From Modestobacter sp. VKM Ac-2986 (GTDB lineage: Bacteria > Actinomycetota > Actinomycetes > Mycobacteriales > Geodermatophilaceae), in NCBI RefSeq assembly GCF_026967795.1, contig NZ_JAPVBH010000001.1:609028-673027 (forward strand): 64,000 bases of DNA, read 5' to 3'. The translations under genes and the position numbers were made by a program. Shown here in pieces: positions 5,601 through 37,709 of the stretch. Position 1 is the stretch's first letter. The number at the start of each line of letters is the position of its first letter. The notes under the pieces were generated by a model. That model searched no databases. It was not told where the DNA came from and saw only the letters and a list, made by a program, of their open reading frames with translations.

Positions 5601-6638
5601 GTGGGCCGGCCGGCGCGCGCCGACGAGCGGGTCGCCGCCGTCGGCCTGTGGCGCCGGCTGCTGGTCAAGCCCGAGCTCGGGTCGCTGATCGGTGCGGTCG
5701 TCATCCTGGTGTTCTTCTCCGCGCAGAGCCAGGTCTTCCGGTCGCTGAGCGGGATCGCGAACTGGCTCGACGTCGCCTCGACGCTGGGCATCATGGCGGT
5801 CGCGGTCGCCCTGCTGATGATCGGCGGGCACTTCGACCTGTCGGCCGGCGTGCTGACCGGCACGACCGCGCTGACCGTCGGGATCGTCGCCGTCCGGTTC
5901 GGGCAGGCCATCTGGGTGGCCATCGCCGTGGCCGGGGTGCTGGCGCTGGCCATCGGCGCCCTCAACGGCTGGCTGGTGACCCGCACGGGGCTGCCCAGCT
6001 TCATCATCACGCTGGCGACCTTCCTGATGCTCCAGGGCCTGAACCTCGGGCTGACCAAGCTGTTCACCGGCACGGTCCAGGTGCGCGGCATCGCCGAGGC
6101 GCCGGGCTACCACTCGGCCGAGCTGGTGCTGGCCTCCACGTTCAGCCTGTTCGGCCAGCAGTTCCGCATCGCGATCGTGTGGTGGCTGCTGGCCACCGCG
6201 GTGGCGACCTGGGTGCTGCTGCGCACCCGGTTCGGCAACTGGGTCTTCGCCACCGGCGGTGACGAGGTCGCCAGCCGCAACGTGGGCGTGCCGGCCGCGC
6301 GCACGACGATCGCGCTGTTCATGACCACGGCCGGCGCGGCCTGGCTGGTCGGGTCCATCACCGCCGTCCGGCTCACCTCGGTGCAGGCCAACACCGGCAC
6401 CGGCCAGGAGCTGATCTACATCGTCGCGGCGGTCATCGGCGGCTGCCTGCTCACCGGTGGCTTCGGCTCGGCGATCGGGGCCGCGCTCGGGGCGCTGGTG
6501 TTCGGCATGACCCAGCAGGGGATCGTCTACCTGCGCTGGGACGCCGACTGGTTCTACTTCTTCCTCGGCGCGATGCTGCTGCTGGCCGTGCTGAGCAACC
6601 GGGCCGTCCGCCGCTACGCCGAGGCGGCCCGTCGATGA
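5601..6638 (+). CDS. Sugar ABC transporter permease (FrcC/RbsC-like)
   Basis: Integral membrane component of the same importer, 345 residues, with about eight to ten hydrophobic segments of the BPD_transp_2 (RbsC) type. The conserved loop [21 protein letters not shown], which typically precedes the cytoplasmic coupling region, is visible near residues 119-139. A charged stretch of about 20 residues precedes the first membrane segment. The GTG at 5601 is the only good start after the upstream stop and has a GAGGCG site close by. Its 3' end overlaps the ATPase gene by four bases (ATGA), so the two are translationally coupled. Confidence 0.93.
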
Positions 6639-7441
6639 GCACCGCCTCGGGCGCCGCGGGCGCTCCCCTGCTGGAGCTGCGCGAGATCGGCAAGGACTTC
6701 GGCTCGGTCATCGCCCTGGACGGCATCTCCACCACCGTGCGGGCCGGGCAGGTCACCTGCGTGCTGGGCGACAACGGCGCGGGCAAGTCCACGCTGATCA
6801 AGGTGCTGTCCGGGGTGCACCGGCCGACGCGGGGCGAGCTGCTGCTCGACGGCGCCCCGGTGCGCTTCGGTGCCCCCCGGGAGGCGCTGGACGCCGGGAT
6901 CGCGACGGTCTACCAGGACCTGGCGATGATCCCGCTGATGGCGATCTGGCGGAACTTCTTCCTCGGGTCGGAGCCGACCACCGGCTGGGGCCCGTTCCGC
7001 CGGTTCGACAGCGCGACGGCCAAGGACGTCACCCGGCGCGAGCTGGCCGCGATGGGCATCGACGTCCGGGACGTCGACCAGCCCGTGGGCACGCTGTCCG
7101 GGGGTGAGCGCCAGTCGGTGGCGATCGCCCGGGCCGTGCACTTCGGTGCCCGGGTGCTCATCCTCGACGAGCCGACCTCGGCGCTGGGGGTCAAGCAGGC
7201 CGGGGTGGTGCTGCGCTACATCGCCCGGGCGCGCGACCAGGGGCTGGGCGTCGTGTTCATCACCCACAACCCACACCACGCGCACCCGGTGGGCGACCGC
7301 TTCCTGCTGCTCAACCGCGGGCGCAGCCTGGGTGACTTCGCGAAGGGCGAGGTCAGCCGCGAGGAGCTGACCACGATGATGGCCGGCGGCGACGAGCTGA
7401 CCCGGCTGGCCGAGGAGCTGGGGCGCGAACCGCGATCTTGA
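6635..7441 (+). CDS. Sugar ABC transporter ATP-binding protein (FrcA-like)
   Basis: ATPase that powers the importer. It has 268 residues and one nucleotide-binding domain, like FrcA and unlike RbsA, which has two. Visible motifs are Walker [10 protein letters not shown] (around 47-55), signature LSGGERQS, Walker [12 protein letters not shown] and switch histidine ITHN. A homodimer is expected. It overlaps the permease stop by four bases. No sugar kinase or regulator lies beside the operon, so the substrate stays open. Confidence 0.94.
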
Positions 7442-7564
7442 CTGCGGTGGGTCATGTGACAACTGCGCCGCGTGTTGCCTTGGGGACGGGTGGGGTCGGT
7501 GCGACCCTCGGAGGAGTCCACCTGCGGGAGCTCGTCCGCAGGCACCTCTTCCCCAGGAGCCACC

Positions 7565-8959
7565 ATGCCGCAGCTCGTGCTGCGTCCGTCCCCGGCACCC
7601 CGGTGCCCGGCCCCCGGCCGGCTGTCGCGTGCGTCCCGGTGGCTGGCCCGGACGGTCTCCGGCGGGCTGGTCGCCGCCGCCACCGTGACCGCCGTGCTGG
7701 GCGCCGGCGGGGGCACCGCGTGGGCTGACCCGGTCAACCCCTCCGACGAGCAGCTGGAGGGCGCGGCGGCGACCCAGGCCGCCGCCACCGCGGAGGTCGC
7801 CCGGATCACCGGGCTGGTGGCCGACGCCGAGGCGCGGCTGGAGCAGGTGCAGTTCCAGGCCGAGGCCGCCGGCACCGCCTACCTCGCGGCGGAGGAGGCC
7901 CGGCAGCTGGCCGAGGCCGCCGCCCAGCAGGCCGCCCGCGACCTGCAGGCCGCCGCCGAGGCCGTGACCGCCTCGCAGGCCCGGATCGCCGACTTCTCCC
8001 GCGACACCTACAAGAACGGCTCCGAGCTCACCAGCGAGATGGCCCTGCTCGACGCCGACGGCCCGGCCGAGCTGATCGAGAAGGCCGCGATCCTGGACTA
8101 CGTCGGCGACCACCAGGTCGACGTCCTGGGGATGCTCGAGGACTCCCGCGTGCAGCAGGCCGCCGCGGACGCCGCCGCCCGGGACGCCCGGGACGACAAG
8201 GCCGCCGCCGAGGCCGCCGCCGAGGCCGCCAAGGTGGCCGCCGACGAGCAGCTGGCCGCCCAGCAGGCCGCGCTGACCCAGGCCGCCGAGCAGAAGGCGC
8301 AGCTGGACCAGCAGCTGCAGGACGCCGAGGTGCGGCTGCTGGAGCTGCAGGGCGCCCGCAACGCCTTCCAGGCCTGGCAGGCGCAGAAGGCCGCGGAGGA
8401 GAAGGCCCGGCAGGAGGAGGAGGCGCGGATCCGCGCGCAGGCCGAGGAGGACGACCGGCGGGCCCGGGCGGCTGCGGCGGCGGAGGCCTCGACCGAGGAG
8501 GACGCCGCGGACACCGGCGACACCGGCAGCGGGGCCGCGCCGGACGACGGCGGCTCGGGCTACGTCCGCCCGGCGGTCGGCCGCACCAGCAGCTGCTACG
8601 GCGCCCGCTGGGGCGTCACGCACTACGGGGTCGACATCGCCGCGCCGATCGGGACGCCCATCTACGCCGCCGCGACCGGCGTCGTCGAGCGGGCCGGGCC
8701 GGCCACCGGGTTCGGGCTGGCGGTGTACATCCGCGGCGACGACGGCGCGATCACCGTCTACGGGCACGTGAACCGGCACTTCGTGGCCGACGGCGAGAGG
8801 GTGCGCGCCGGTGAGCGCATCGCCGAGGTGGGCAACCGCGGCCAGTCCACCGGCCCGCACCTGCACTTCGAGGTGCACCCCAACGGCATGATGTACGGCG
8901 GTCAGGTCGACCCGGTGCCGTGGCTGCGGGCGCGGGGGATCACCATCCGCGGCTGCTGA
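7565..8959 (+). CDS. Secreted M23 (LytM-type) peptidoglycan endopeptidase with coiled-coil stalk
   Basis: Predicted cell-wall hydrolase of 464 residues. The ATG at 7565 has a good AGGAG site seven bases upstream. The N-terminus carries a long signal peptide ending near TAWADP. Residues about 60-330 form an Ala/Gln/Glu-rich coiled coil like the stalks of EnvC/RipA-type hydrolases or activators. The C-terminal M23 domain (about 360-455) keeps the zinc ligands: HYGVD (HxxxD) and GPHLHFEV (HxH), so it should be an active enzyme. A short acidic linker joins stalk and domain. It is transcribed alone; a terminator hairpin follows at once. Confidence 0.93.
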   Translation: MPQLVLRPSPAPRCPAPGRLSRASRWLARTVSGGLVAAATVTAVLGAGGGTAWADPVNPSDEQLEGAAATQAAATAEVARITGLVADAEARLEQVQFQAEAAGTAYLAAEEARQLAEAAAQQAARDLQAAAEAVTASQARIADFSRDTYKNGSELTSEMALLDADGPAELIEKAAILDYVGDHQVDVLGMLEDSRVQQAAADAAARDARDDKAAAEAAAEAAKVAADEQLAAQQAALTQAAEQKAQLDQQLQDAEVRLLELQGARNAFQAWQAQKAAEEKARQEEEARIRAQAEEDDRRARAAAAAEASTEEDAADTGDTGSGAAPDDGGSGYVRPAVGRTSSCYGARWGVTHYGVDIAAPIGTPIYAAATGVVERAGPATGFGLAVYIRGDDGAITVYGHVNRHFVADGERVRAGERIAEVGNRGQSTGPHLHFEVHPNGMMYGGQVDPVPWLRARGITIRGC

Positions 8960-8964
8960 GGCGA

Positions 8965-8992
8965 CCCGGGCGCCCTGTCGCAGGCGCCCGGG
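8965..8992. terminator. Bidirectional terminator between convergent genes
   Basis: A 10-bp stem, CCCGGGCGCC with GGCGCCCGGG, between the 3' ends of the M23 peptidase gene (plus) and the lipoprotein gene (minus). It can fold on either transcript. Confidence 0.65.
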
Positions 8993-9001
8993 CCGACGGT
9001 C

Positions 9002-9544
9002 TCAGGCCCCGCAGTTCTCGCTGGTCCAGGCGTCGAGCCGGGTCTGGGCCTCGCCGGTCTCGGCCTGCAGCCGGGTCGCCTCGGCCTGCACGGCCGCCTG
9101 GCCCTCCGCGGTGTTGAGGTCCACGCCCTGCACGGCGTCGCGGAGGCCGGCGAACAGCCGCTTGGCGGCGTCCCAGTCGCCGCTGATCTCCGCCGGGGCC
9201 TGGACGGCCTCGAGGTCGGTGACCGCCTTCTCCAGGGCCGGGCCGACCTGGGTGGCGTCGGGGGACTCCAGGCTCTGGCTGACCTGGGTGAGGGCCTGGC
9301 CGGCCTGGTCGCAGAAGGCCCGCACCGCCGGGTCGTCGGACCCGCCGGAGGCGGCAGCGCTGGAGCTGGGGGCCGCCGAGCCGGACGACGCCGCCGAGCT
9401 GGAGGCCGGAGCCGAGCTGGAGGCCGGTGCGGGGGAGGCCGCGGCGTCGGTGGCCTCCTCCTCCGATCCGCCGCAGGCGGTCAGCAGGACGAGGGCGGCG
9501 GTGGCGGTCAGGCCGGCCTTGAGCAGGGTCGCGGGTGCGCGCAT
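9002..9544 (-). CDS. Putative secreted lipoprotein of unknown function
   Basis: A 180-residue protein with a lipoprotein signal: hydrophobic segment ending VLLTAC, Cys24 lipidated. An unusually long Ser/Ala/Pro linker of about 45 residues follows. The remaining roughly 110 residues look alpha-helical, with a Cys near the start of the domain (RAFCDQAG) and another at the C-terminus (ENCGA), which may form a disulphide. I do not recognise the family. It is divergent from the metallo-hydrolase gene and probably lies at the outer membrane face. Confidence 0.8.
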   Translation of the reverse strand: MRAPATLLKAGLTATAALVLLTACGGSEEEATDAAASPAPASSSAPASSSAASSGSAAPSSSAAASGGSDDPAVRAFCDQAGQALTQVSQSLESPDATQVGPALEKAVTDLEAVQAPAEISGDWDAAKRLFAGLRDAVQGVDLNTAEGQAAVQAEATRLQAETGEAQTRLDAWTSENCGA

Positions 9545-9608
9545 GGGGTCGACGCTACGTGGCCGGGCGGACGGCGGCCGTGCCTGCGACGGCGTTACCG
9601 TGCCGTCC

Positions 9609-10475
9609 GTGAGCGCGCCGGTGGACCCACGCAGCAGCTGGGGCCTGCCCGCTCCCGGGACGATGGCGCCGGTCGCCGACCCCGAGCCCCTGGTCACCCG
9701 GGTGCTGGCGCCCAACGCCTCGCCGATGACGCTGGACGGCACCAACACCCACCTGGTCGGCGAGCCGGGGTCGGGACAGGCGGTCGTGGTCGACCCCGGT
9801 CCCGACGACCCCGCGCACCTGGTCGCGGTCGAGGCGGCGCTCGCCGCCCGCGGTGCCCGGGTGGTGGCGGTGCTGGTCACCCACCACCACGGCGACCACG
9901 CCACCGCGGCCCGCCCCTGGGGCCGGCACTTCGGCGCGCCGGTGGCCGCGGCCTCGCCCGCCGTGACCGGGTCCGGCGGGCGGCTGCTGGTGGCCGGCGA
10001 GCGCCTGCGCCTGGCCGGGACGACGCTGGACGTCGTCCCCACGCCCGGGCACACCGCCGACCACCTGGCCTTCCGGCTGGCCTCCGGGGCGGTGCTGACC
10101 GGGGACGCGGTGCTCGGCCGCGGCACCTCGGTGGTCAGCCATCCCGAGGGCGACCTGCTGGCGTACCTGGACTCGCTGCGCCGGCTGCACGACCTGGGCC
10201 CGGCCGCGCTGTACTGCGGGCACGGGCCGGAGCTGACCGTCGACCCCTCGGCCGTGCTGCGCCACCTCCTCGACCACCGGGCGCACCGGGAGGCGCAGCT
10301 GCTGGCCCTGCTGGCCGTGGCCCCGCGCACCGTGCCGGAGCTGGTCGCGGCCGTGTACCCGGGCGTCGTCCCGGCCGTGCTGCCGGCGGCGGCGCAGTCG
10401 ACCCGGGCGACGCTGGTCAAGCTGGCCGCCGAGGGGCACGTCCGGGTGGACGGCGACCGGGCCGAGCTGGCCTGA
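9609..10475 (+). CDS. MBL-fold metallo-hydrolase (LACTB2-like)
   Basis: Metallo-beta-lactamase-fold hydrolase of 288 residues. The metal motif THHHGDHA (HxHxDH type) and downstream ligands in PTPGHTADH and YCGHGPE are intact. The C-terminal 60 residues (from about 230) look like a winged helix, as in LACTB2-type nucleases and hydrolases. MTLDGTNTHLVG near the N-terminus is typical of the actinobacterial subgroup. The GTG at 9609 is favoured by comparison with that subgroup; an earlier GTG is possible. The substrate is unknown. It is divergent from the lipoprotein gene and convergent with the next gene, seven bases away. Confidence 0.88.
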   Translation: MSAPVDPRSSWGLPAPGTMAPVADPEPLVTRVLAPNASPMTLDGTNTHLVGEPGSGQAVVVDPGPDDPAHLVAVEAALAARGARVVAVLVTHHHGDHATAARPWGRHFGAPVAAASPAVTGSGGRLLVAGERLRLAGTTLDVVPTPGHTADHLAFRLASGAVLTGDAVLGRGTSVVSHPEGDLLAYLDSLRRLHDLGPAALYCGHGPELTVDPSAVLRHLLDHRAHREAQLLALLAVAPRTVPELVAAVYPGVVPAVLPAAAQSTRATLVKLAAEGHVRVDGDRAELA

Positions 10476-23631: not shown

Positions 23632-24630
23632 TCAGAGCGGGCGAGGGCGGTACGCCTCGACCAGGCGGTCCATCAGCGCGTCCATCCGGGCGTCGACGAC
23701 CTGGTGCTCGGGGTGGGCGTCGTGCCACTCGACGATCTCCCGCGCGCCCTGCTCGAAGGGCACCCGCGCCGCGGAGTCCGGCACGAGGTCGCGCACCTTC
23801 GAGTTGTCGAAGACCGCCGAGTGCGCCTTGTCGCCGAGCAGCCCGGCACCCCACTCGGGGTCGACCGCGGCGATCGCGTCGGAGGGGACGTGCACCAGCC
23901 GGGGCTCGACGCCGGCCGCCCGGGCCAGCAGCGTGGTGATCCGGTCCCAGGTGATCGCCTCGTCGGAGGTGAGGTGGAAGGCCTCGCCGAGGGTCTCCGA
24001 CCGGCCGAGGAGGCCGACGAACCCACGGGCGAAGTCGGTGTTGTGGGTGAGCGTCCACAGTGACGTGCCGTCGCCGGGCACCACGACCTCCGCGCCCCGG
24101 CGCAGCCGGTCGATGACGGTCCAGCCCCCGTCGAGGGGGATCGTCGCCGCGTCGTAGGTGTGCGAGGGCCGCACGATCGTCACCGGGAAGGCGCTGTCGC
24201 GGTACGCGGACACCAGGAGGTCCTCGCAGGCGATCTTGTCCCGCGAGTAGGCCCAGAACGGGTTGCGCAGCGGCGTGGACTCGGTGATCGGCAGCCGCAG
24301 CGGCGGGGTCTGGTACGCCGACGCCGAGCTGATGAACACGTACTGACCGGTGCGGCCGGTGAACAGGTCGACGTCGGTCTGCACGTGCTCCGGGGTGAAC
24401 GCCACCCAGTCGACGACGACGTCGAAGTCCTGGCCGCCCAGCGCCCGCCGGACGCTGTCGGCGTCCCGGACGTCGCCCTCGTGGACGACGACACCCTCGG
24501 GCACCGGCCGGAGCGAGGACCGGTTCCTCTTGAGGAGGTGCAGCTCGATGCCGCGCTCCACCGCCAGCCGGGCGCACGCCGAGCTGATGATCCCGGTCCC
24601 GCCGATGAAGAGCACCTTGAGCGCGGTCAT
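23632..24630 (-). CDS. NAD-dependent epimerase/dehydratase (extended SDR)
   Basis: 332 residues from ATG at 24630. The cofactor motif FIGGTGIISS (GxxGxxS variant) opens the Rossmann fold, followed by the acidic GDVRDADSVRRAL segment. The catalytic pattern is present: FISSASAYQ and YSRDK (Y-x3-K). The C-terminal half, around SLWTLTHNTDFARGFVGLL, is that of extended SDRs acting on nucleotide sugars or related substrates. The substrate is not identifiable. It stands alone and diverges from the UvrA-like gene. Confidence 0.88.
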   Translation of the reverse strand: MTALKVLFIGGTGIISSACARLAVERGIELHLLKRNRSSLRPVPEGVVVHEGDVRDADSVRRALGGQDFDVVVDWVAFTPEHVQTDVDLFTGRTGQYVFISSASAYQTPPLRLPITESTPLRNPFWAYSRDKIACEDLLVSAYRDSAFPVTIVRPSHTYDAATIPLDGGWTVIDRLRRGAEVVVPGDGTSLWTLTHNTDFARGFVGLLGRSETLGEAFHLTSDEAITWDRITTLLARAAGVEPRLVHVPSDAIAAVDPEWGAGLLGDKAHSAVFDNSKVRDLVPDSAARVPFEQGAREIVEWHDAHPEHQVVDARMDALMDRLVEAYRPRPL

Positions 24631-24750
24631 GCCTCGACCATGCGGTGCCCGGCGCCGGGCAGCAAGACGAGGGACGGACGGCGCCGCGGGGCCTCCCGAC
24701 TGTCCGACCCGTCCGGTACACATCGAGCCAGGGCGACGAGGGAGCAGACG

Positions 24751-27120
<2,370 letters not shown>

Positions 27121-28705: not shown

Positions 28706-30394
28706 TCAGTGGGCGTCGGCCCAGGACCGGACGGCGGCGACGTCGAGCGGGAAGTCGACGGGGAAGGACCCGAACAGCAGCCGGCCGGCCTCGGCCGCGG
28801 CGGTGCGCACCACTGCGCCCACCTCGTCGGCGAGCTCGGCCGGGGTGTGCACCACCACCTCGTCGTGCACGAAGAACACCAGGTGCGGGCGCCCGGTGAG
28901 CTCGCCGGACCCCAGCCGCCACAGCCGGTTGCGGAGGTCGGCCAGCCAGCACAGCGCCCACTCGGCACCGGTGCCCTGGACGACGAAGTTGCGGGTGAAC
29001 CGGCCCCACGACCGGCGCTCGCGCCCGCGGTCCTCGACCGACTGGCCGCCGTCGGGCTCCTCACCGGCGGGCACCGCCCACGCGCCGGTGGGCAGCGGCG
29101 ACCCGCGGCCGAGCAGCGTGTGCACCACCTCGCCGCGCTCCCCGGCGCGTGCGGCCTCCTCGACCAGCCCGATCGCCCGCGGGTAGCGGCGGGTCAGCCC
29201 CGGCATCATCCGGCCGCTCTCGCCCCGGGTCGCGCCGTACATCGCCCCCAGCATCCCGATCTTGGCCTCCGCCCGGGTCGCGACCGCCCCGCTGTCGACC
29301 ATGCCCTGGTACAGGTCGGCAGCACGCGCGGCCTCGGCCATCACGGTGTCGCCGCTCATCCCGGCCAGCACCCGCGGCTCCAGCTGCGCGACGTCGGCCA
29401 CCACGAACAGCCACCCGTCGTCGGCCCGGGCGGCCGGGCGCACCGGCGCGGGCACCGACAGCGCCCCACCGCCGGAGGACGCCCACCGGCCGGTGACCAC
29501 GCCGCCGGGCAGCCAGGTGGGCCGGAACCGGCCGTCGGCCACCCAGGTGTCCAGCCACGCCCAGCCGTTCGCGGCCAGCAGACGGGAGAGCTTCTTGTAC
29601 TCCAGCAGCGGGCCCACCACGGGGTGGTCGACCTGCTCCAGCGTCCACGAGCGGGTGTCGGCCACCGGCAGCCCTGCGGTCTGCAGCGCCCGGAGCAGGT
29701 CCGGCGGGGAGTCGGGGTTGAGGTCGGGGGCGCCCAGTGCGGCCCGGATGTCGGGCACCAGCCGCTCCAGCCCGGCCGGCCGGGCACCGCGCACCGGCCG
29801 CGGGCCCATCAGCTCGGTCAGCAGCCGGTCGTGGACGTCGGCCCGCCACGGCATCCCGGCGTGCGTCATCTCCGCCGCGACCAGCGCCCCGCCCGACTCC
29901 GCCGCCAGCAGCAGCCCCAGCCGCGCCCGCTGCGGCGAGGCGGCCACGGTCGCCTGCTGCCGCTCGTGCTCCGCGGCGGGGTCGAGCCCGTCGGCCGGGT
30001 CGTCGAGCGGGAAGAGCGCCGGCTCGGCGGCGGACACCGGCTCGAGGGAGTCCCAGCCCGCGGTGTCCGGGCCGGCCAGCAGCGCCTGGTCGGCGAACGG
30101 GGAGCGCCGCAGGACCGCGTGGGCCAGCCGCAGGTCGGTGCAGCGCTCCACCCGGACCCCGGCGGCCAGCAGCTGCGGGTACCAGCGCGTCGTGTCGTCC
30201 CAGACCCAGCGCGGGCTGGCGGGCTCCCGGGCGGCCACGAACCGCGGCAGCCCACTGGCCGGCACCTCGATCAGCCCCACGGTGCGGCCGTCGGCGGACA
30301 GGTCGCGGGCGACCACCACGTCGGGCCCGCGCCGGGTCAGCAGCACCCGCGACACCGCGTCGCCGGCCGCGCGCCCGGGCAGCTCGACGGTCAC
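28706..30394 (-). CDS. Family A DNA polymerase without 5' nuclease domain
   Basis: 562 residues from GTG at 30394 with GGGCGAG nine bases upstream; a GTG at 30412 is the alternative. The polymerase motifs are intact: motif A ADVAQLEPRVLAGMSGD, motif B RAEAKIGMLGAMYG (R-x3-K-x7-YG) and motif C VFFVHDEVVV. The 5'-3' nuclease of PolI is missing. The N-terminal third (about 1-180) occupies the place of the proofreading domain, but the DEDD residues are not obvious. Actinobacteria carry such a second PolA-like protein in addition to PolI; a repair role is likely. Convergent with the membrane gene before it and divergent from the exosortase operon. Confidence 0.92.
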   Translation of the reverse strand: MTVELPGRAAGDAVSRVLLTRRGPDVVVARDLSADGRTVGLIEVPASGLPRFVAAREPASPRWVWDDTTRWYPQLLAAGVRVERCTDLRLAHAVLRRSPFADQALLAGPDTAGWDSLEPVSAAEPALFPLDDPADGLDPAAEHERQQATVAASPQRARLGLLLAAESGGALVAAEMTHAGMPWRADVHDRLLTELMGPRPVRGARPAGLERLVPDIRAALGAPDLNPDSPPDLLRALQTAGLPVADTRSWTLEQVDHPVVGPLLEYKKLSRLLAANGWAWLDTWVADGRFRPTWLPGGVVTGRWASSGGGALSVPAPVRPAARADDGWLFVVADVAQLEPRVLAGMSGDTVMAEAARAADLYQGMVDSGAVATRAEAKIGMLGAMYGATRGESGRMMPGLTRRYPRAIGLVEEAARAGERGEVVHTLLGRGSPLPTGAWAVPAGEEPDGGQSVEDRGRERRSWGRFTRNFVVQGTGAEWALCWLADLRNRLWRLGSGELTGRPHLVFFVHDEVVVHTPAELADEVGAVVRTAAAEAGRLLFGSFPVDFPLDVAAVRSWADAH

Positions 30395-30487
30395 CGACGC
30401 AGTCTCGCCCACGGGTCCGACACGGCCACCGCGGCTGCCGGCACCGCGCCGTCCCGGGCACCGCCGGCAGCCCGGCGAGCGGGCGCT

Positions 30488-30514
30488 CAAGAGCCTGCGG
30501 CGGGATGCCGATCA
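30488..30514 (+). promoter_or_regulatory. Possible FliA/WhiG-type promoter of the exosortase operon
   Basis: GCCGATCA at 30507-30514 matches seven of eight bases of the sigma-28 class -10 element (GCCGATAA). CAAG at 30488-30491, 15 bases upstream, is a weak match to the -35 (TAAA). It ends about 60 bases before the first start codon. Geodermatophilaceae have motile cells, so a flagellar-type sigma factor could link the operon to cell type. This is inference from a short motif. Confidence 0.3.
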
Positions 30515-30574
30515 CCACCGAGTACCGGAGCTGACCAGCACCGGGACACCACCACCGCCCGGAGAGGACCCGTC

Positions 30575-32059
30575 GTGCCCGCAGTGCCCGCGGTCGTCGA
30601 GAGCCCGTCCGACGTCCCGTCGGTCGGCTCCCACACCGACCGCCCGGAGGCCCGGATCGGCGCGCTCGTGGTCTACGTGCTGCTCGCGGTGACCGCGTTC
30701 CTGTTCTTCGGCGTCGACCGGACCCTCGGCGTGGTCGCCGGCGCCATCAACGTCGTCTTCGCCGTCTTCTTCTGCCGGCACCTGGCCTTCGCGGTCTCCG
30801 CGGCCCGCTGGGCCGAGGCCGACCTGCTCGCCGCCGACGTCGACCTGGAGGGCTACACGCCCCCCGTCGCGGTGTTCGTCGGCTGCAAGAACGAGGAGCT
30901 GGTCGTCGACGGGATGATCCAGGCGCTGTTGGCCCTGGACTACCCGGCCGACCGGCTCCAGCTCGTCGTCGTCGACGACGGGTCCGACGACGGCACCGGA
31001 CCGCGCCTGGACGCCTGGGCTGTGCGCGAGCCCCGGCTGCGGGTCATCCACCGGCCGGCGGGCTCGGGCGGCGGCAAGTCCGGCGCCCTCAACGAGGCGC
31101 TGCGCACCGTCGAGGCCGAGGTCGTCCTGGTCTTCGACGCCGACCACGAGCCCGACCCCAACGCCCTGCGCCGCCTGGTGCGGCACTTCCGCGACCCCTC
31201 CGTGGGCGCGGTGATGGGCCGCTGCGTCATCCGCAACGGCCACGACTCCTCGCTGGCTTCGGTCGTCTTCGTCGACTACCTCTCCGGCTACCTGGTCAAC
31301 GAGTACGGCCGCCAGGCGATGTTCGAGCTGCCGGCCTACGGCGGCGCGAACTGCGCGGTGCGGATGTCGACGCTGCGGTCGCTGGGCGGGTGGAACCCGA
31401 ACACGGTCACCGAGGACACCGACCTGACCCTGCGGGTGCTGCTGTCCGGGCAGCGGGTCCGCTACGACGTCTCGGCCGTCGACTACGAGGAGGCCGTGGT
31501 CACCGCGCGCCGCTTCTGGACGCAGCGGTACCGCTGGGCCCGCGGCCACCAGAAGTGCATGCGCGACTACTGGCGTCCGATGATGCGCTCGCGGCACCTG
31601 ACGGTGCTGGAGAAGGCCGAGTCGATGATGTTCCTGCTGACCTACCACGTCCCGGTGCTCTCCGGGATCGGCCTGCTGCTCACCGTGCTGCGCGCCTTCG
31701 GCATCGGCGACCTGCCGCTGATCGGGCTGCTGCCGCTGTCGATGCTGCTGTTCGTCGGCCCGCTCGCCGAGCTGAGCGTGGGCCTGCTGGTCAGCCGGGT
31801 CGAGCGGCGGGCGGCCTGGCAGCTGATCGGCTTCCTGCCCTCCTTCGCGTTGTCGATCTGGATCACCACGCGGGCCTACCTGGACGGGATGCTCGGCCGC
31901 CCCTACACGTGGGTGAAGACCACCCGCTCCGGCGCGACCTCCACCCTGGCCCCGGTCGCCGTCCCGCTGCCACTGCCCCTGCCGCCGGTCGAGGGCGCCC
32001 GCCCCCGGTCCTTCGCGGTCGCCGGCACCGACGCCGGGACGGTGGGTCCCCGTGGCTGA
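30575..32059 (+). CDS. Processive family 2 glycosyltransferase (cellulose/hyaluronan synthase type)
   Basis: First of seven overlapping genes. 494 residues from GTG at 30575 with GGAGAGGA upstream. Two membrane helices (about 28-46 and 50-68) precede the catalytic GT2 domain. All processive-synthase motifs are present: VDDGSDD (133-139), DADH (188-191), TEDTD (279-283) and QRYRW (317-321). Two to three more membrane helices follow from about 345. It should polymerise a sugar at the membrane and extrude the chain, from a UDP-sugar probably linked to the epimerase and deacetylase in the same operon. The tail is Pro-rich. It overlaps the exosortase gene by eight bases. Confidence 0.93.
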   Translation: MPAVPAVVESPSDVPSVGSHTDRPEARIGALVVYVLLAVTAFLFFGVDRTLGVVAGAINVVFAVFFCRHLAFAVSAARWAEADLLAADVDLEGYTPPVAVFVGCKNEELVVDGMIQALLALDYPADRLQLVVVDDGSDDGTGPRLDAWAVREPRLRVIHRPAGSGGGKSGALNEALRTVEAEVVLVFDADHEPDPNALRRLVRHFRDPSVGAVMGRCVIRNGHDSSLASVVFVDYLSGYLVNEYGRQAMFELPAYGGANCAVRMSTLRSLGGWNPNTVTEDTDLTLRVLLSGQRVRYDVSAVDYEEAVVTARRFWTQRYRWARGHQKCMRDYWRPMMRSRHLTVLEKAESMMFLLTYHVPVLSGIGLLLTVLRAFGIGDLPLIGLLPLSMLLFVGPLAELSVGLLVSRVERRAAWQLIGFLPSFALSIWITTRAYLDGMLGRPYTWVKTTRSGATSTLAPVAVPLPLPLPPVEGARPRSFAVAGTDAGTVGPRG

Positions 32060-33233
32060 CGCCGTCCTCGCGCCGCCGGTCCCGCGCCGGCTGCGCGCCA
32101 CCAGCCGGCGACAGCTGGCCGTCCTCGCCGACCTGCTGCTGGCCGGGGCGATCTGCCTGGTCGGGTACCGCTACGGCACCCACTGGCTGCAGGTCCAGGA
32201 GGCCAGCTGGGTCGTCGGGCTGCTGCACCTGTTCGGGGTGGACTCCGTCTCCGGGGTGCTGCCGACCCGCATCCTCATCTTCCGGGCCGACGGCGAGCTG
32301 CTCAACGCCGTCGTCACCGCCTCGTGCTCGTCGATCCTGTCGGTCGTCGGCCTCACCGCGCTGACCGCGTCGGTGCTGCGCAGCCGCCGCTGGCACGCGG
32401 TCGCCGGCCTGGCCGTCGCGATCGTCGCGGTGCTGGTCGCCAACCACGTCCGGCTGCTGCTGTCCACGGTGATCGGCCTGCAGTGGGGCGGCGGCTCGCT
32501 GGTGCTCTTCCACGACTGGGTGGGCACGTTGTGGAACCTCGCGGCCACCCTGGGGGGCTTCCTGCTCATGGTCTACGTCACCCTGCCTCCCAGCGTGCGG
32601 GCCGAGCAGGACGTCGCCGGCCGGCACACCGCCCGCCGTCCCAGCAGCTGGGCCCGCCCGGGGCTGGGCTACCGGCTGCCGGAGACCGACCAGACCGCAC
32701 CCGTCCAGGGACGCAACCTGGCCGGGCTCGTCCACCGCTTCCTGCTCCCGCGCCGGATCTCCCGCTGGCTGGGTGCCCGCCGAGAGACCGCCCGGATCGA
32801 CTACCGGATCGGCCACCTCCCGGTGGAGGGCCGGGTGAAGCGCGTCGGCGCCCTCGCCGCCGACGGACTGGGCGCGCACACCGCCTCGCTGCTGGCCGTC
32901 GCCACCTACGAGCAGGACGGCGCCGTCCTCGACGCCCTCGCCGACGCCATCGCCGCCCGGCAGTGGGAGCCGGTGACCAACGAGCGCGTCTCGTCGCTGC
33001 GGTTGTGGGCGCGGGGCTGGACGCTCAGCCGCGGCCTGCACGCGACCGTCGCTCCCGCCCCGGCGGCCGTCCTCCCGGCGGCCCCCGCTCCGGCGGCGGC
33101 CCCCGTCCCCGCACCGGTCGTCCCGACCGGCGTGCCGAGGCCCCCGGTGCCGCGGCGCACCGGCCCGACCCTGCGCAGCTTCGCCCGCCCCGCCCCCAGC
33201 CCGTCCGCACCCGACGCCGAGGACCCCCGATGA
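32052..33233 (+). CDS. Exosortase/archaeosortase-like transpeptidase with C-terminal extension
   Basis: 393 residues. Residues about 20-180 form a compact multi-pass core with the three catalytic residues of the family in order: Cys92 in TASCSS, Arg134 in NHVRLLL and His154 in FHDWVGT. Exosortases cleave substrates at a C-terminal sorting signal and are thought to join them to a cell-surface acceptor. After the core comes an extra soluble part (about 185-330) that I cannot assign, then a Pro/Ala-rich tail. A likely substrate is encoded four genes downstream. No sortase is present in the window. GTG start overlapping the upstream gene by eight bases, and its stop overlaps the next gene (ATGA). 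Confidence 0.88.
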   Translation: MADAVLAPPVPRRLRATSRRQLAVLADLLLAGAICLVGYRYGTHWLQVQEASWVVGLLHLFGVDSVSGVLPTRILIFRADGELLNAVVTASCSSILSVVGLTALTASVLRSRRWHAVAGLAVAIVAVLVANHVRLLLSTVIGLQWGGGSLVLFHDWVGTLWNLAATLGGFLLMVYVTLPPSVRAEQDVAGRHTARRPSSWARPGLGYRLPETDQTAPVQGRNLAGLVHRFLLPRRISRWLGARRETARIDYRIGHLPVEGRVKRVGALAADGLGAHTASLLAVATYEQDGAVLDALADAIAARQWEPVTNERVSSLRLWARGWTLSRGLHATVAPAPAAVLPAAPAPAAAPVPAPVVPTGVPRPPVPRRTGPTLRSFARPAPSPSAPDAEDPR

Positions 33234-34390
33234 GCCGCTCCCTGCACCCCTGGCCGGTCCCGCCGCCGCGCGTGGCCGTGGTGGACGTCCGCGCCCTGCC
33301 CCGCCCCGTGGTGCCGGCCGCGCCGGCGACCGCCGTCCCCGCCCCCCGGACCCCGACCCCGGCCCCGACCCCGAGCCCGACCGCGGACGTCGTCCCCGGG
33401 TCCACCGTCCTGGTCACCGGCTCGGGTGGGCCGGCCGGGGTGGCCGTGGTGCGACGCCTGGTCGCCCTCGGGCACCGGGTGGTCGCCGTCGACATCGACC
33501 CCATCGCCGCCGGCAGCGCGCTGGCCACCGTCGGGGGCGTCGTCCCCCGCGCCGACGACCCGGCCTTCGTCGACGCCCTGCTCGCGTTCGCCGCCGAGCA
33601 CGGCGCCGACGCGCTGGTCAGCACCGTCGCCGAGGAGCTGCCGGCGCTCACCGCCGCCACCGACCGGTTCGCCGCCGCCGGCCTCGCGACCTGGCTGCCC
33701 GACGTGGCCGCCGTCGACCTGTGCTGCGACAAGGCCGCCTTCGCCGTCCGGCTGGTCGAGGCCGGGGTGCGCACCCCGGCGACCGCCTCGACCGTCGAGG
33801 CCGCAGCCGACGTCCCCGGGCCGTGGATCGTCAAGCCCCGCGCGGGGCGGGGCAGCCGCGGGGTCCAGCTGCTGGACTCGGCCGCCGACGTGGCCGCGGC
33901 GATGACCGCCGACCCGGGCCTGATCGTGCAGACCCGGTTGACCGGCCGGGAGTTCACCGCCGACGCCCTCGTCGCCCGGGACGGCTCGCTGCTCACCGTC
34001 GTGCCGCGCTGGCGGGACGCCACCAAGGCCGGCATCTCCGTGCAGGGCACCACCTTCGACTCCGAGGCCGTCACCACGGTGGTCGCCGACGCGCTGGAGG
34101 CGGTCGCGCTCACCGGCCCGGCCAACGTGCAGGGCTTCGTCGCCGACGACGGCACGGTCACCGTCGTGGAGATCAACCCGCGGTTCAGCGGTGGTCTGCC
34201 GCTGACCCTCGCCGCCGGCGCCGACGTCGTCGGCACCTACCTGGCCGGGGTCCGCGAGCCGGCCGCCGAGCTGCCGCACCTGTTCTTCACCCCCGGGGTG
34301 CGGATGAGCCGCTACTTCGCCGAGACCTACACCGCCGGTGACGGCAGCCCCGTCGCCGACCCCTGCGCCGTCCCCGCGGTGACCCGGTGA
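33230..34390 (+). CDS. ATP-grasp family ligase
   Basis: 386 residues. A Pro/Ala/Thr-rich segment (1-57) is followed by a Rossmann-like pre-ATP-grasp domain with VLVTGSGGPAG and VDIDP, then the ATP-grasp fold: KPRAGRGSRGVQLL as the glycine-rich loop, LTGREFTADALV, and EINPRFSGGLPL with the metal-binding Glu and Asn. Such proteins (PylC or carbamoyl-phosphate-synthase-like) join a carboxylate to an amine. In this operon it may amidate or aminoacylate a sugar or the surface-protein linkage; that is inference. It is coupled to both neighbours by 4-base overlaps. Confidence 0.9.
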   Translation: MSRSLHPWPVPPPRVAVVDVRALPRPVVPAAPATAVPAPRTPTPAPTPSPTADVVPGSTVLVTGSGGPAGVAVVRRLVALGHRVVAVDIDPIAAGSALATVGGVVPRADDPAFVDALLAFAAEHGADALVSTVAEELPALTAATDRFAAAGLATWLPDVAAVDLCCDKAAFAVRLVEAGVRTPATASTVEAAADVPGPWIVKPRAGRGSRGVQLLDSAADVAAAMTADPGLIVQTRLTGREFTADALVARDGSLLTVVPRWRDATKAGISVQGTTFDSEAVTTVVADALEAVALTGPANVQGFVADDGTVTVVEINPRFSGGLPLTLAAGADVVGTYLAGVREPAAELPHLFFTPGVRMSRYFAETYTAGDGSPVADPCAVPAVTR

Positions 34391-35538
34391 GCCGCAGCCG
34401 GCACGTGCTGGTGCCCTTCGGCACCCGGCCCGAGGTCGTCAAGCTCGCCCCGGTGGTGGCCGCGCTGGTCGCCGCCGGGCACCGGGTGGACGTCGTGGAC
34501 ACCGGGCAGCACGCCGACGCCGCGATGGCCTCGCAGCTGCAGGAGGCCCTCGGGCTCACCCCGACCCACCGGTTCAGCCTGCCGACCGAGCCCGCGTCGG
34601 CCCGCACCGGCGCGCTGCACGCCGACGCCGCCACGGCGCTGGCCCGCTTCCGCCCCGACCTCGTCCTGGCCCTCGGCGACACCAACACCGTGCCGGCCTA
34701 CGCGCTGGCCGCCCGCGGTGCCGGCGTGCCGTTCGCGCACGTGGAGGCCGGACTGCGCAGCTACAACATGCGCAGCGTCGAGGAGGTCAACCGGCGGGTC
34801 GCCGCCGCGATCGCCCAGCTGCACCTGGCCCCGACCGCCCGGGCCGCGGACTCGCTGCTGCGCGAGGGCGTGCCCGCCGAGCGGGTGTTCGTCGTCGGCA
34901 ACCCGGTCATCGACACCCTCGTCACCCGTGGCGTCACCCCGCTCCCGGTCGCCGAGCGCGCCGGGGTGCTGGTAACCGCCCACCGCCCGACCAACGTCGA
35001 CGACCCGGTCCGGCTCGCCCGGCTGGTCGCCGTCGTCCGCGGTCTGGCCGAGCGGGTCGGGCCGGTCACCTTCCCGGTGCACCCGCGCACCACCGCCCGG
35101 CTGGCCGCCGCCGGTCTCACCGGGGCCCTCGACCACCCGGGCATCACGCTCACCGGGCCGGTCGACCACGACACGCTGATGGGCGCGCTGCGCGCGTCGG
35201 CGCTCGCGGTCACCGACTCCGGCGGCGTCCAGGAGGAGGCCGCCCACCTCGGCGTCCCGGTCGTGGTGCTGCGCTCCTCGACCCCCCGCTGGGAGGGCGT
35301 CGAGGCCGGGACGACGACGCTGGCCGGGCTGACCGACGACGGCGCCGCCGAGGCGGTGCTGGCCGCCGCCGCCGCGCACACCTCCGCCGCCGGGCAGGCC
35401 CGGGCCGCCGCGCTGCCCTGCCCCTACGGCGACGGCACGACCGGCGCGCAGGTCGCGGCGATCCTGGCCGACGAGCGCACCGACGCCCTGCTCGAGCTCA
35501 CCGAGCCCGACTTCACCGACGGCCGGCTCCCGTGGTGA
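34387..35538 (+). CDS. wecB: UDP-N-acetylglucosamine 2-epimerase (non-hydrolysing)
   Basis: Interconverts UDP-GlcNAc and UDP-ManNAc, and so supplies UDP-ManNAc to surface glycans. 383 residues, full length. Family marks are FGTRPEVVKLAPV at the N-terminus, GDTNT, HVEAGLRS and DSGGVQEEA. The usual E-E-x-N-R is present as SVEEVNRR. The HRREN motif of the standard enzyme reads HRPTN here, so the histidine is kept but two neighbours differ. GTG start inside the upstream stop (GTGA). It gives a direct clue that the operon makes a ManNAc- or GlcNAc-containing product. Confidence 0.93.
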   Translation: MSRSRHVLVPFGTRPEVVKLAPVVAALVAAGHRVDVVDTGQHADAAMASQLQEALGLTPTHRFSLPTEPASARTGALHADAATALARFRPDLVLALGDTNTVPAYALAARGAGVPFAHVEAGLRSYNMRSVEEVNRRVAAAIAQLHLAPTARAADSLLREGVPAERVFVVGNPVIDTLVTRGVTPLPVAERAGVLVTAHRPTNVDDPVRLARLVAVVRGLAERVGPVTFPVHPRTTARLAAAGLTGALDHPGITLTGPVDHDTLMGALRASALAVTDSGGVQEEAAHLGVPVVVLRSSTPRWEGVEAGTTTLAGLTDDGAAEAVLAAAAAHTSAAGQARAAALPCPYGDGTTGAQVAAILADERTDALLELTEPDFTDGRLPW

Positions 35539-36371
35539 CCGGCTGGGCCGGGCCGCCGCCGCTGGCCGTCGTCGTCGACCTCGACGACACCCTGTACCCG
35601 CAGGCCAGCTACCTGGCCGGCGCCGCCGCGGCCGTCGGTGCGGCAGCAGCCGCCGCCGGGCTGGACGGCGCCGCCGTGCACGCCGCGCTGGCCGCGGAGC
35701 TGGCCGCCGGCTCCGACACCGGCGGCACCATCGACCGGGCCCTGCTGGCCACCGGGGTCGACCCGGCGGCGCTGCCCGCGCTGCTGCCGCCGCTGGTCGC
35801 CGCGTTCACCGGCCACGTGCCCGACCGGCTGCCCACCTACCCCGGCGTCGAGGCGGCCCTGACCGCCCTCGCCGCCGCCGTCCCGCTGGCCTGCCTGACC
35901 GACGGCGCGCCGGTGGTCCAGCGGGCCAAGCTCGCCGGCACCGGGCTGGACCGGCTGCTGCCGCTGGTCGTGCTCAGCGACTCCCTCGGCGGCCGGGCCA
36001 CCCGCAAGCCCTCCCCGGCCGGGCTGCTGGCCATCGCCGCGCGGCTCGGCGTCCCGGCCGACCGGCTGCTGATGATCGGCGACCGGCCGGGCAAGGACGT
36101 CGCGGTCGCGGCCGCCGTGGGCGCCCGGGCGATCCGCGTGCGGCAGGGCGAGTACGCCGACGCGCCCGACGTCCCCGCGGCGTGGGCGGTCACCGACACG
36201 TTCCCGGAGGCGGTGACCTGCGCACTCTCCGTGATCGGCCACCCGACCGGGGACGGGCACCTCACCCGGAGGCAGGACGTCCCGGCCCGGCACTCCAGGA
36301 CAGGCGCTCTGCTGTCGATGACAGGAGCACCAGGCGACCAGGTCGCCACCGAGCCGAGGGCAGGCAGATGA
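35535..36371 (+). CDS. HAD-superfamily phosphatase
   Basis: 278 residues from GTG at 35535 (GTGA overlap; a GTG three bases earlier is possible). All four HAD motifs are visible: D15-x-D17 in VVVDLDDTLYP, CLTDGAP, Lys in ATRKPSP, and MIGDRPGKD. The cap region (about 25-100) is of the small C1 alpha-helical type. The C-terminal 35 residues after the HAD fold are basic and look disordered. It may dephosphorylate a sugar phosphate or lipid-linked intermediate of the same pathway. Its stop overlaps the surface-protein start (ATGA). Confidence 0.88.
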   Translation: MTGWAGPPPLAVVVDLDDTLYPQASYLAGAAAAVGAAAAAAGLDGAAVHAALAAELAAGSDTGGTIDRALLATGVDPAALPALLPPLVAAFTGHVPDRLPTYPGVEAALTALAAAVPLACLTDGAPVVQRAKLAGTGLDRLLPLVVLSDSLGGRATRKPSPAGLLAIAARLGVPADRLLMIGDRPGKDVAVAAAVGARAIRVRQGEYADAPDVPAAWAVTDTFPEAVTCALSVIGHPTGDGHLTRRQDVPARHSRTGALLSMTGAPGDQVATEPRAGR

Positions 36372-36970
36372 CGAACACCTCACCGACGGGGCAGCGCACC
36401 CGGCGACCGCTGCGCGAAGCGGCACTCGCCGTGCTGACCGGACTGCTCGCGGTGCTGGCCCCGCTGGCCGCAGCGACGCCGGCCTCGGCCTCGGGCTACT
36501 ACGGGTACGACGGCGGCTACAGCGGCGACACGAACGGTCAGTACACCGGCCCGGTCGTCGTCTTCCCGATGGTCAACTGCATCCAGGTCAGCAACGGGAC
36601 GTACAGCGCGGTGCTCGGCTACCGGAACACGAGCACGAGCACGTACAGCATCACCGGCGGCTACAACGTGATCAGCCCGTCGTCGTACAACGGCCGGCAG
36701 CCCACGACGTTCCGGCCCGGCACCTACAGCGGCGTCTTCACGGTGCCGGTCACCTCCGGCACCGTCTACTGGACCCTGGGCAACACCAAGCTGACCATCA
36801 ACCGCACCGCGGCCAAGACCTGCGGCGCGGACACCCAGATGCCCGCCGACGGCAACGGCACCGGCGTGGTGGGGGCCCTGGCCGTCGCCGCCGGCGCCGG
36901 CGCCCTGGTCGTGCAGCGCACCCGCCGCCGGCTGGCCGGGACCCCTTCGGAGGAGACCGTCGATGCGTAG
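36368..36970 (+). CDS. Secreted surface protein with C-terminal sorting signal (probable exosortase substrate)
   Basis: 200 residues. A signal peptide (1-41, cleavage likely after ASA at 39-41) precedes a Gly/Tyr-rich start and one beta-sandwich domain (about 62-152) with a Cys71/Cys152 pair, the NGTYSAVLGYRN pattern and VYWTLG. The end has the three-part layout of sorting signals: MPADGNG (158-164), a hydrophobic helix (165-183) and a basic stop RTRRR (184-188). No exact LPxTG or PEP motif is seen, so the cleavage motif may be lineage-specific. The gene is locked between the HAD and PIG-L genes of the exosortase operon by 4- and 8-base overlaps, so it is the obvious candidate substrate. Confidence 0.82.
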   Translation: MTNTSPTGQRTRRPLREAALAVLTGLLAVLAPLAAATPASASGYYGYDGGYSGDTNGQYTGPVVVFPMVNCIQVSNGTYSAVLGYRNTSTSTYSITGGYNVISPSSYNGRQPTTFRPGTYSGVFTVPVTSGTVYWTLGNTKLTINRTAAKTCGADTQMPADGNGTGVVGALAVAAGAGALVVQRTRRRLAGTPSEETVDA

Positions 36971-37709
36971 CGTGCTGGCCGTCGGGGCCCACCCCGACGA
37001 CATCGAACTGGGCTGCGGCGCGACGCTGCTGGCCCACCACCAGGCCGGCGACCGGGTCACCATGCTGGTGCTCACCGGTGGCGAGAACGGCCCCGGCGAC
37101 GAGTTCGGCCAGGCGGGTCTCCGCCGCCTCGAGCAGCAGCGCGCCGCCCGGACCCTCGGTGCCGAGCTGCGCTGGGGCGGGCTGCGCGACTGCACCGTCG
37201 TCCCCGACTCCGCCACCATCGGCATCATCGAGGCCGCGCTGCGCGCCACCGACGCCGACCTGGTCTACGTGCACGCCCCCGACGACAGCCACCAGGACCA
37301 CCGGGCGGTCTCCGCAGCGACGCTGTCCGCCGCCCGCCGGCTCTCCCGGGTCATGCACTACCAGAGCCCCTCGACGCTGACCTTCACCCCGACGGTCTTC
37401 GTCGACGTCACCGCGCACCTGTCCGGCAAGCTCGCCGCGCTCGGCGCGCACGCCTCGCAGGTGGAGATGTCGGCGATGGTCGAGCCGGACGCCGTCGTGG
37501 CCTCGGCCCGGCACTGGGGCGCCCAGGCCCGGATCGGCTACGCCGAGGCCTTCGCCCCGACCCGGATGGTGCTGGACCTGGCGCCGGCACTGCGGCCGTC
37601 GGCCGAGGTGCCCACCCCGCGCCCGGCGGTCGAGGACCTGGTCGTCACCGCCCACCGGCTCAGCAGCCTGATCGCCGCCCCGGTCGCCGCCCCGGTCGCC
37701 GCGGGCTGA
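36963..37709 (+). CDS. PIG-L/LmbE family de-N-acetylase
   Basis: Last gene of the operon, 248 residues. The zinc site is intact: AHPDD (9-13) at the N-terminus and the distal SHQDHRAV (H-x2-H). PIG-L enzymes remove N-acetyl groups from GlcNAc-bearing compounds, as MshB does in mycothiol and others in glycolipid or polysaccharide synthesis. Here it probably acts on the sugar made by the epimerase and glycosyltransferase of the same operon. The C-terminus ends in an Ala/Pro/Val-rich tail. It overlaps the surface-protein gene by eight bases. Confidence 0.92.
   Translation: MRSVLAVGAHPDDIELGCGATLLAHHQAGDRVTMLVLTGGENGPGDEFGQAGLRRLEQQRAARTLGAELRWGGLRDCTVVPDSATIGIIEAALRATDADLVYVHAPDDSHQDHRAVSAATLSAARRLSRVMHYQSPSTLTFTPTVFVDVTAHLSGKLAALGAHASQVEMSAMVEPDAVVASARHWGAQARIGYAEAFAPTRMVLDLAPALRPSAEVPTPRPAVEDLVVTAHRLSSLIAAPVAAPVAAG

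Follow-up and report, generated by a model that had tools for sequence, protein, structure and literature searches.

Seven overlapping plus-strand genes were analysed in a 64,000-nucleotide stretch of Modestobacter sp. VKM Ac-2986 (contig NZ_JAPVBH010000001.1, positions 609,028 to 673,027; this whole stretch is called the window below), whose genome measures 4.19 Mb. They encode a family 2 glycosyltransferase (GT2), an exosortase, an ATP-grasp ligase, a WecB-type UDP-GlcNAc 2-epimerase, a HAD phosphatase, a small secreted protein with a C-terminal tail, referred to here as the substrate, and a PIG-L de-N-acetylase. With modest confidence we favour the view that these genes form a sorting system built on an actinobacterial exosortase whose type has no curated name, and that the genes for its own acceptor are packed in with it. 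Sequence comparison makes the sorting step by the window exosortase highly probable; the proposed acceptor chemistry, a de-N-acetylated, perhaps aminoacylated, mannosamine-type sugar deduced from enzyme families and by analogy, comes close to an even chance without reaching it. More tentatively, this may be the first exosortase system of bacteria in which the genes for making the acceptor have been recognised; that acceptor would be a 'linking sugar', namely mannosamine freed of its N-acetyl group and extended by the ATP-grasp ligase (aminoacyl mannosamine), and in some relatives the ligase that readies it would lie inside the exosortase polypeptide. The observed part comprises the genes, their intact catalytic residues, their co-occurrence and their fusions.

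The exosortase, the tail of its presumed substrate and one of the glycan genes marked the same genomes of the genus. When 23 Modestobacter genomes were searched with a profile of 32 tails (150 candidates scored per genome), five matched at E ≤ 1.8e-12, and none of the candidates scored in the other 18, of which 13 are at least 90% complete, was better than 0.005. Those same five were recovered with the exosortase profile (E ≤ 5e-58), which gave in addition a weak match (9e-5) in G022, and with the window ATP-grasp ligase, the one glycan gene covered by the genome-wide search of the congeners, which found no other genome at E ≤ 1e-10 (at most 83 candidates scored per genome). Assuming independent genomes, the odds of this exact five-in-23 coincidence are 3e-5, a value that serves as a guide only because the positive congeners are partly close kin; four of the five (the window genome and L014, L023 and L034, corresponding to G021, G010 and G007) had also given tails to the profile. 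All 24 exosortase genomes examined held at least one tail match, at least 38 in all, the weakest having an E value of 1e-11 (150 candidates scored per genome). The profile contained tails from 22 of these genomes, which leaves L026, whose operon is interrupted by a contig end, and L033 as the informative cases; both were positive. Of the reading given in an earlier note on this DNA, the part that is supported is an exosortase that has a sorting signal to itself and a set of glycan genes inherited along with it; the disappearance of the exosortase from genomes keeping the substrate and the glycan genes, named there as contrary evidence, did not arise for the one glycan gene searched genome-wide, as exosortase, tail and ATP-grasp mark the same five.

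The distribution of the tail also bears on the enzyme that would read it. Because the tail starts with (L/M)P-x-x-G and sortases (PF04203) are present in all 23 genus genomes, with three to eight in each, it might be thought an unusual LPXTG-like signal for a sortase class. We regard this as extremely unlikely and rejected it, since sortases are found in 23 of 23 congeners whereas the tail is confined to the five that bear the exosortase. Besides their sortases, which all of them have, genomes of the genus can maintain another C-terminal anchoring route that uses its own signal.

To follow the cluster beyond the genus, 46 related loci were compared, 42 obtained from a scan of 84,980 species genomes (all titled as actinobacterial) and four from whole-genome searches. 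These loci were selected by their exosortase, and only the counts of the other genes are informative. The ATP-grasp gene was present in 46 loci, the GT2 gene in 45, the WecB and PIG-L genes in 43 each and the HAD gene in 41, and a substrate relative detectable by BLAST in 25. The exosortase together with GT2, ATP-grasp, WecB, HAD and PIG-L is thus a set found repeatedly across Actinomycetota. The order GT2, exosortase, ATP-grasp, WecB, HAD, substrate, PIG-L was found in 22 of the 46, and in most of the distant loci PIG-L came first instead. The arrangement is not a product of chance: all seven genes recur in unchanged order in those 22 loci, although the loci were chosen for their exosortase. 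Contig ends cut L055, L026, L051, L053 and L095; apart from these contig-cut loci and L033, the misses of the substrate belonged to distant loci. The check named in the earlier note, whether the seven genes always occur together, came out positive for most of the core and negative for the place of the substrate; WecB, HAD or PIG-L also broke the rule in a small number of loci. Two further weak matches, L096 and L097, turned out to be other, larger exosortases and were excluded from the 46.

The window exosortase passed the exosortase/archaeosortase signature TIGR04178 (34.0 bits, cut-off 23) and fell narrowly under the Pfam EpsH model PF09721 (23.8 bits, cut-off 25.7). Cys92, Asn131, Arg134, His154 and Asp155 were invariant in all 47 aligned sequences, so that the Cys92/Arg134/His154 set read earlier from the letters stands, and the membrane core was predicted with a predicted local distance difference test (pLDDT) value of mostly 90-97. 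Here and in the other operon enzymes, we take the invariant aligned columns to be the catalytic ones. Motif counts based on patterns proved too strict (DDGS in 37 of 45 GT2s, HVEAGLR in 4 of 43 epimerases) and aligned columns were used instead.

Gene fusions tie this exosortase to the ATP-grasp ligase, which adjoins it in 46 of 46 loci. In many distant loci (e.g. L044, L047, L048, L052 and L054) a short exosortase is followed by a small protein resembling the C-terminal extension of the window exosortase, and tblastn matched this small protein in 39 of the 46 loci. L041, L050 and L094 carry the ATP-grasp gene directly after the exosortase, and in L040 (Acidimicrobiaceae) the HEAT-like domain forms the N-terminus of the ATP-grasp protein. 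Exosortase, extension and ATP-grasp make up one uninterrupted frame in L038 (an actinomycetotal metagenome-assembled genome) and L039 (Micromonospora pattaloongensis), with linkers of 17 and 23 residues that contain no Met; L018 and L025 likewise join exosortase and ATP-grasp in a single frame, the linker of L025 containing a Met. A 655-residue stretch of L039 scored 30.6 bits against TIGR04178 (cut-off 23) and 151.8 bits against an ATP-grasp model (below its cut-off of 390). L037 was left out of the fusion count, its single frame being due to an apparent frameshift. With both enzymes joined in one frame in relatives, ligase and exosortase probably work side by side, and the product of the ligase is for that reason a good acceptor candidate.

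Two alternatives have to be weighed against these fusions. The acceptor for archaeosortase A is likely an ethanolamine lipid, and here too it might be an ordinary amine phospholipid, with the glycan genes secondarily glycosylating the substrate or the lipid. The cleavage and lipid modification of archaeosortase A substrates, described in PMC7157517, would fit such an acceptor, which would however leave unexplained both the ATP-grasp-exosortase fusion and the exact co-occurrence of ATP-grasp, tail and exosortase, and we consider it improbable. Still less probable is that the exosortase only cleaves, the protein being released and the sugar genes travelling along for another surface function. 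Transfer is predicted here from the genes, and the L097 locus described below pairs a substrate-domain relative with another exosortase and no sugar-gene match in 12.5 kb, both of which would suit a cleaving enzyme; the fusions, on the other hand, bind the ligase to the exosortase, and the conserved Cys/Arg/His set of EpsH has been likened to that of sortases (PMC1569441).

Three parts make up the relatives of the tail protein: a signal peptide, a single domain of some 85 residues in which two cysteines are conserved, and a C-terminal tail laid out as Cys, P-x-x-G-N-G-x-G, membrane helix and arginines. For the window protein, structure prediction gave strands within residues 65-144 (pLDDT about 90) and helices at 16-34 and 166-189, so that the 200-residue secreted protein with a sorting-signal tail announced in the earlier note was recovered with its signal peptide, beta domain and tripartite tail. 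The tails of 31 relatives were selected by the pattern (L/M)P-x-x-G-N-(G/S)-x-(G/A), which makes the invariance of P, G and N one of construction; the Cys is absent from that pattern and was present in 32 of 32 tails. No NCBIfam model matched the protein at E ≤ 1, hence no curated tail (PEP-CTERM) model did, and no Pfam family was assigned, the best being DUF6338 at E 0.048, below the cut-off. Judged from these comparisons, the P-x-x-G-N-G tail is a new candidate sorting signal.

A second putative substrate, alike in domain and tail (175 amino acids, G000:C1:464845-465372), is encoded in the window genome about 174 kb from the operon. In L033 (Geodermatophilus saharensis) the operon has no substrate gene and an unlinked one, sharing that domain and bearing the tail CPPSTQMPADGNGTG, was found elsewhere in the genome at position 468080, which exceeds the 277,764-base contig of the operon and places it on another contig. 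The claim of a self-contained system with its own substrate is thus not supported. Tandem pairs of tail-bearing frames occur in 7 of the 24 loci that supplied tails. Two further relatives of the substrate domain were also observed. One (L119, 12407-12775, minus strand; 34% identity) has a full cluster adjacent and no P-x-x-G-N-G. The other (G115, locus L097, 8573-10983, plus strand) has another tail and stands beside a larger exosortase of another type. Judging from the second of these, the exosortase that anchors the substrate domain seems to differ between lineages.

Searches of all seven products against Pfam and NCBIfam agreed with the families that had been assigned before. The GT2 scored 89 bits against PF13641 (cut-off 27), and D135, D188, D190, E280, D281, Q317, R320 and W321 were invariant in 46 of 46 sequences, D134 being kept in 40 and replaced by Asn in the other 6. 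Its scores lay below the cut-offs of the PgaC/IcaA poly-N-acetylglucosamine (PNAG) synthase model TIGR03937 (131 bits, cut-off 422) and of the XrtP-associated glycosyltransferase model NF053846 (101 bits, cut-off 520); with the former so far under its cut-off, the earlier description of the enzyme as processive is plausible only. The epimerase exceeded the cut-off of TIGR00236 (248 bits, cut-off 210), had 2-epimerases as its nearest relatives in the PDB (E 1e-50) and showed E16, D98, H118, E120, E132, R136 and H199 invariant in 44 of 44 sequences. The HAD protein scored 62.7 bits against PF00702, with D15 and D17 in 42 of 42, and the PIG-L protein 87 bits against PF02585, with H10, D12, D13, H110, D112 and H113 in 44 of 44. 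No signal peptide was seen in the latter, which is therefore probably cytosolic. Finally, the ATP-grasp ligase matched PF02655 and PF15632 and scored 171 bits against NF009405 (below its cut-off of 390); ATP-grasp enzymes typically couple a carboxylate to an amine.

These glycan genes might instead build an extracellular amino-sugar polymer (PNAG-like or poly-N-acetylmannosamine, partly deacetylated), the exosortase passing the protein to the polymer or freeing it into the matrix. PgaC/IcaA is the best-scoring NCBIfam model for the GT2, and Gram-negative PEP-CTERM systems go with exopolysaccharide loci according to PMC1569441; yet the PgaC score falls well short, the seven genes include no polymer-export gene, the PIG-L enzyme is without the visible signal peptide that a deacetylase of exported polymer should have, and a plain homopolymer would leave the ATP-grasp and HAD enzymes without an obvious role. 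We judge a polymer product unlikely, though deserving consideration. The earlier suggestion of an amino-sugar polymer or glycolipid with the small protein fixed to it comes close to this alternative.

We infer each chemical step of the favoured system, and their order, as follows. The substrate, and the second one encoded elsewhere, would be exported through the predicted signal peptide and retained by the C-terminal membrane helix. Cleavage by the exosortase near P-x-x-G-N-G would, by comparison with the superfamily, involve Cys92, aided by Arg134 and His154, and yield an acyl-enzyme, from which the acyl group would move to the amine of an amino sugar linked to the membrane. To make this sugar, WecB would convert UDP-GlcNAc into UDP-N-acetylmannosamine (UDP-ManNAc), the GT2 would transfer the sugar onto a lipid or chain, and PIG-L, probably in the cytosol, would strip the acetyl group to leave a free amine, which the ATP-grasp ligase may lengthen with an amino acid; the HAD enzyme would take off a phosphate. 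The end product would be a protein amide-bonded to an amino sugar at the cell surface. The case for an amino-sugar acceptor is that a transpeptidase requires an amine, which PIG-L can release from an N-acetyl sugar, and that WecB points to mannosamine.

Several observations weigh against this scheme. Within the stretches examined, L040 and L042 have no WecB and HAD genes and L046 no PIG-L gene, which leaves ATP-grasp and GT2 as the only near-universal glycan genes of these loci. The five positive congeners do not represent five independent gains, three of them being close kin (the ATP-grasp proteins being 92 and 89% identical to that of the window). Secreted proteins with a second type of tail, (V/M/L)P-x-G-A-x-G-G or a variant followed by a helix and arginines (12 tails by pattern, in 11 loci), adjoin the cluster in several distant loci, among L040, L042-L045, L047-L049 and L051-L054; three were tested (L043, L047 and L048), of which two fall in the choice-of-anchor P family and the third in no family. 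As no glycan gene of the operon set matched within the 12.5 kb stretch of L097, the substrate domain would be independent of the window-type operon. Lastly, the substrates of the ATP-grasp and PIG-L enzymes are not readable from sequence, and the same genes could be used for an N-acetylmannosamine polymer (an exopolysaccharide).

To place the window exosortase among known ones, curated families were compared. XrtP (NF012139), XrtS (NF033767) and XrtR (NF012138) were each rejected: the exosortase gave no match at E ≤ 1 to the first (curated score 200 bits), 29.6 bits with the second (cut-off 145) and 20.9 bits with the third (cut-off 150). These families, and the XrtP-associated glycosyltransferase, are presumably actinobacterial in range. 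An XrtP search of 396 phylum genomes found nothing over the cut-off and a single match at E ≤ 1e-10, and an XrtS search of 394 class genomes found 11 genomes (the window's included) at E ≤ 1e-6 and none over the cut-off. Window-type exosortases are rare, with strong matches in 3 of 396 phylum genomes including the window's own (9 candidates scored per genome), and no relative was found in a viral-contig scan.

Loci resembling XrtP, XrtR or XrtS share with the window a small exosortase and a neighbouring GT2. Ten XrtS-like loci were examined, L118 and L119 being of the window type; the other eight, L110-L117, together with L093 and L098 make ten P/R/S-like loci, none over a family cut-off. A GT2 was matched in nine of these and WecB in eight (L112 having neither and L093 no WecB; seven of L110-L117 have both), and no match to PIG-L, ATP-grasp or HAD was found at E ≤ 1e-3 in any of the ten (stretches of 10-20 kb for L110-L117). 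Tail-bearing targets were inspected in L093 and L098 only. L093 (XrtP/R-like) has a GT2 and a choice-of-anchor P target; L098 (congener G022, about 6346-10334, minus strand) has an XrtP/R-like exosortase, a GT2, a secreted tail protein and WecB, its GT2 scoring 467 bits against NF053846, under the cut-off already given and far from the 101 bits of the window enzyme. Since these loci mostly have GT2 and WecB and none of the rest, it looks like GT2 and WecB are what the loci have in common, with PIG-L, ATP-grasp, HAD and the HEAT-like domain added in the window type. The WecB-type epimerase near the GT2 in the XrtS-like L110, L111 and L113-L117 suggests that UDP-ManNAc may be a common ingredient of actinobacterial exosortase systems. 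The earlier note knew of no described system with this set. An exosortase with a GT2 is of a known kind already, as NCBIfam has curated XrtP, XrtR, XrtS and the XrtP-associated glycosyltransferase; for the exact gene set, no description was found in the open-licence literature by title and start of abstract, although subscription papers and NCBI family notes may cover parts; PMC11631085, which mentions both exosortase and ATP-grasp, does so only among its references.

Better-studied anchoring systems offer partial parallels. In eukaryotic glycosylphosphatidylinositol (GPI) anchoring, which compares with the window as an analogy only, the sugar of the anchor is a substrate of a de-N-acetylase from the PIG-L family, and a cysteine transamidase exchanges a C-terminal hydrophobic tail for the anchor amine. 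The type IX secretion system uses a type IX sortase where the window has an exosortase, and the lipid anchor of archaeosortase A is linked to PssA/PssD. Archaeosortase A of Haloferax (PMC7157517) also pairs a tripartite C-terminal signal with a superfamily enzyme; it is archaeal, with a PGF motif and a lipid anchor in place of the amino-sugar genes of the window. The PEP-CTERM/EpsH system of Gram-negatives shares the tripartite tail, the Cys/Arg/His membrane enzyme and nearby polysaccharide genes (PMC1569441), whereas the window tail has no PEP motif, its seven genes include no EpsI, its phylum is another and its exosortase core is smaller.

A parallel in logic, the Wbp/Vim linking sugar of type IX secretion, combines a dedicated amino-sugar pathway, a putative deacetylase, amino acid addition and an amide bond to the C-terminus. 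Cargo, according to PMC7468200, forms an amide bond with 2-N-seryl or 2-N-glycyl sugars; loss of the acetyl group is tentatively attributed to VimE and addition of the amino acid to VimA, and the authors raised the speculation that an amino-acid-modified sugar might serve exosortase systems as well. The enzymes differ, with a CE4-like VimE against PIG-L and an acetyltransferase/FemAB-like VimA against ATP-grasp, and there are no Wbp genes among the seven; the VimA-like transferase model TIGR03019 was absent among the NCBIfam matches listed for the seven proteins (the best 25 for two of them), and the comparison is one of working principle only. Should the proposed scheme be true, bacteria would have in it a counterpart to GPI anchoring and to the type IX linking sugar, made from other enzymes. 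PMC7468200 terms the conjugation partner of exosortases 'an unidentified compound', and the window system, with likely acceptor genes and one small substrate in a single seven-gene operon, could help to show what bacterial exosortases attach proteins to.

Table 1. Genes and signals of the exosortase operon, in window coordinates.
Feature	Position	Strand	Evidence
GGAGAGG, likely ribosome-binding site of the GT2 gene	30561..30567	+	direct sequence reading
GT2 membrane glycosyltransferase, PgaC/IcaA-like, 494 amino acids	30575..32059	+	PF13641, PgaC match, XrtP-associated glycosyltransferase match, invariant columns
Exosortase (core about 24-180) with fused small helical HEAT-like domain (about 223-331), 393 amino acids	32052..33233	+	TIGR04178, invariant residues, model
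ATP-grasp ligase, carbamoyl-phosphate-synthase-like group, 386 amino acids	33230..34390	+	PF02655/PF15632, NF009405
Non-hydrolysing UDP-GlcNAc 2-epimerase (WecB/MnaA type), 383 amino acids	34387..35538	+	TIGR00236, PDB relatives
HAD phosphatase, 278 amino acids	35535..36371	+	PF00702, D15/D17
Putative substrate, secreted 200-amino-acid protein with signal peptide, beta domain 65-144 and C-terminal sorting tail	36368..36970	+	alignment (n=22) and model
Predicted sorting tail: Cys152, P159-x-x-G162-N163-G164, membrane helix 166-189, Arg-rich end	36821..36967	+	alignment of 32 tails and profile matches
PIG-L/LmbE-type de-N-acetylase, 248 amino acids	36963..37709	+	PF02585 and invariant columns

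All seven frames and all six overlaps (8, 4, 4, 4, 4 and 8 bases) were as previously described. The operon had been said to begin at 30488, where there is no start codon and from where the frame stays open further upstream; the GTG at 30575, with GGAGAGG ahead of it, is the likely start of the GT2 gene. The closest relatives found are Modestobacter muralis (L014; GT2 96% identical) and other Geodermatophilaceae. Upstream, a family A DNA polymerase gene (28706-30490, minus strand) is divergent from the operon, and a probable UvrA-like ABC protein (ABC_tran match) is encoded at 24538-27120 on the plus strand.

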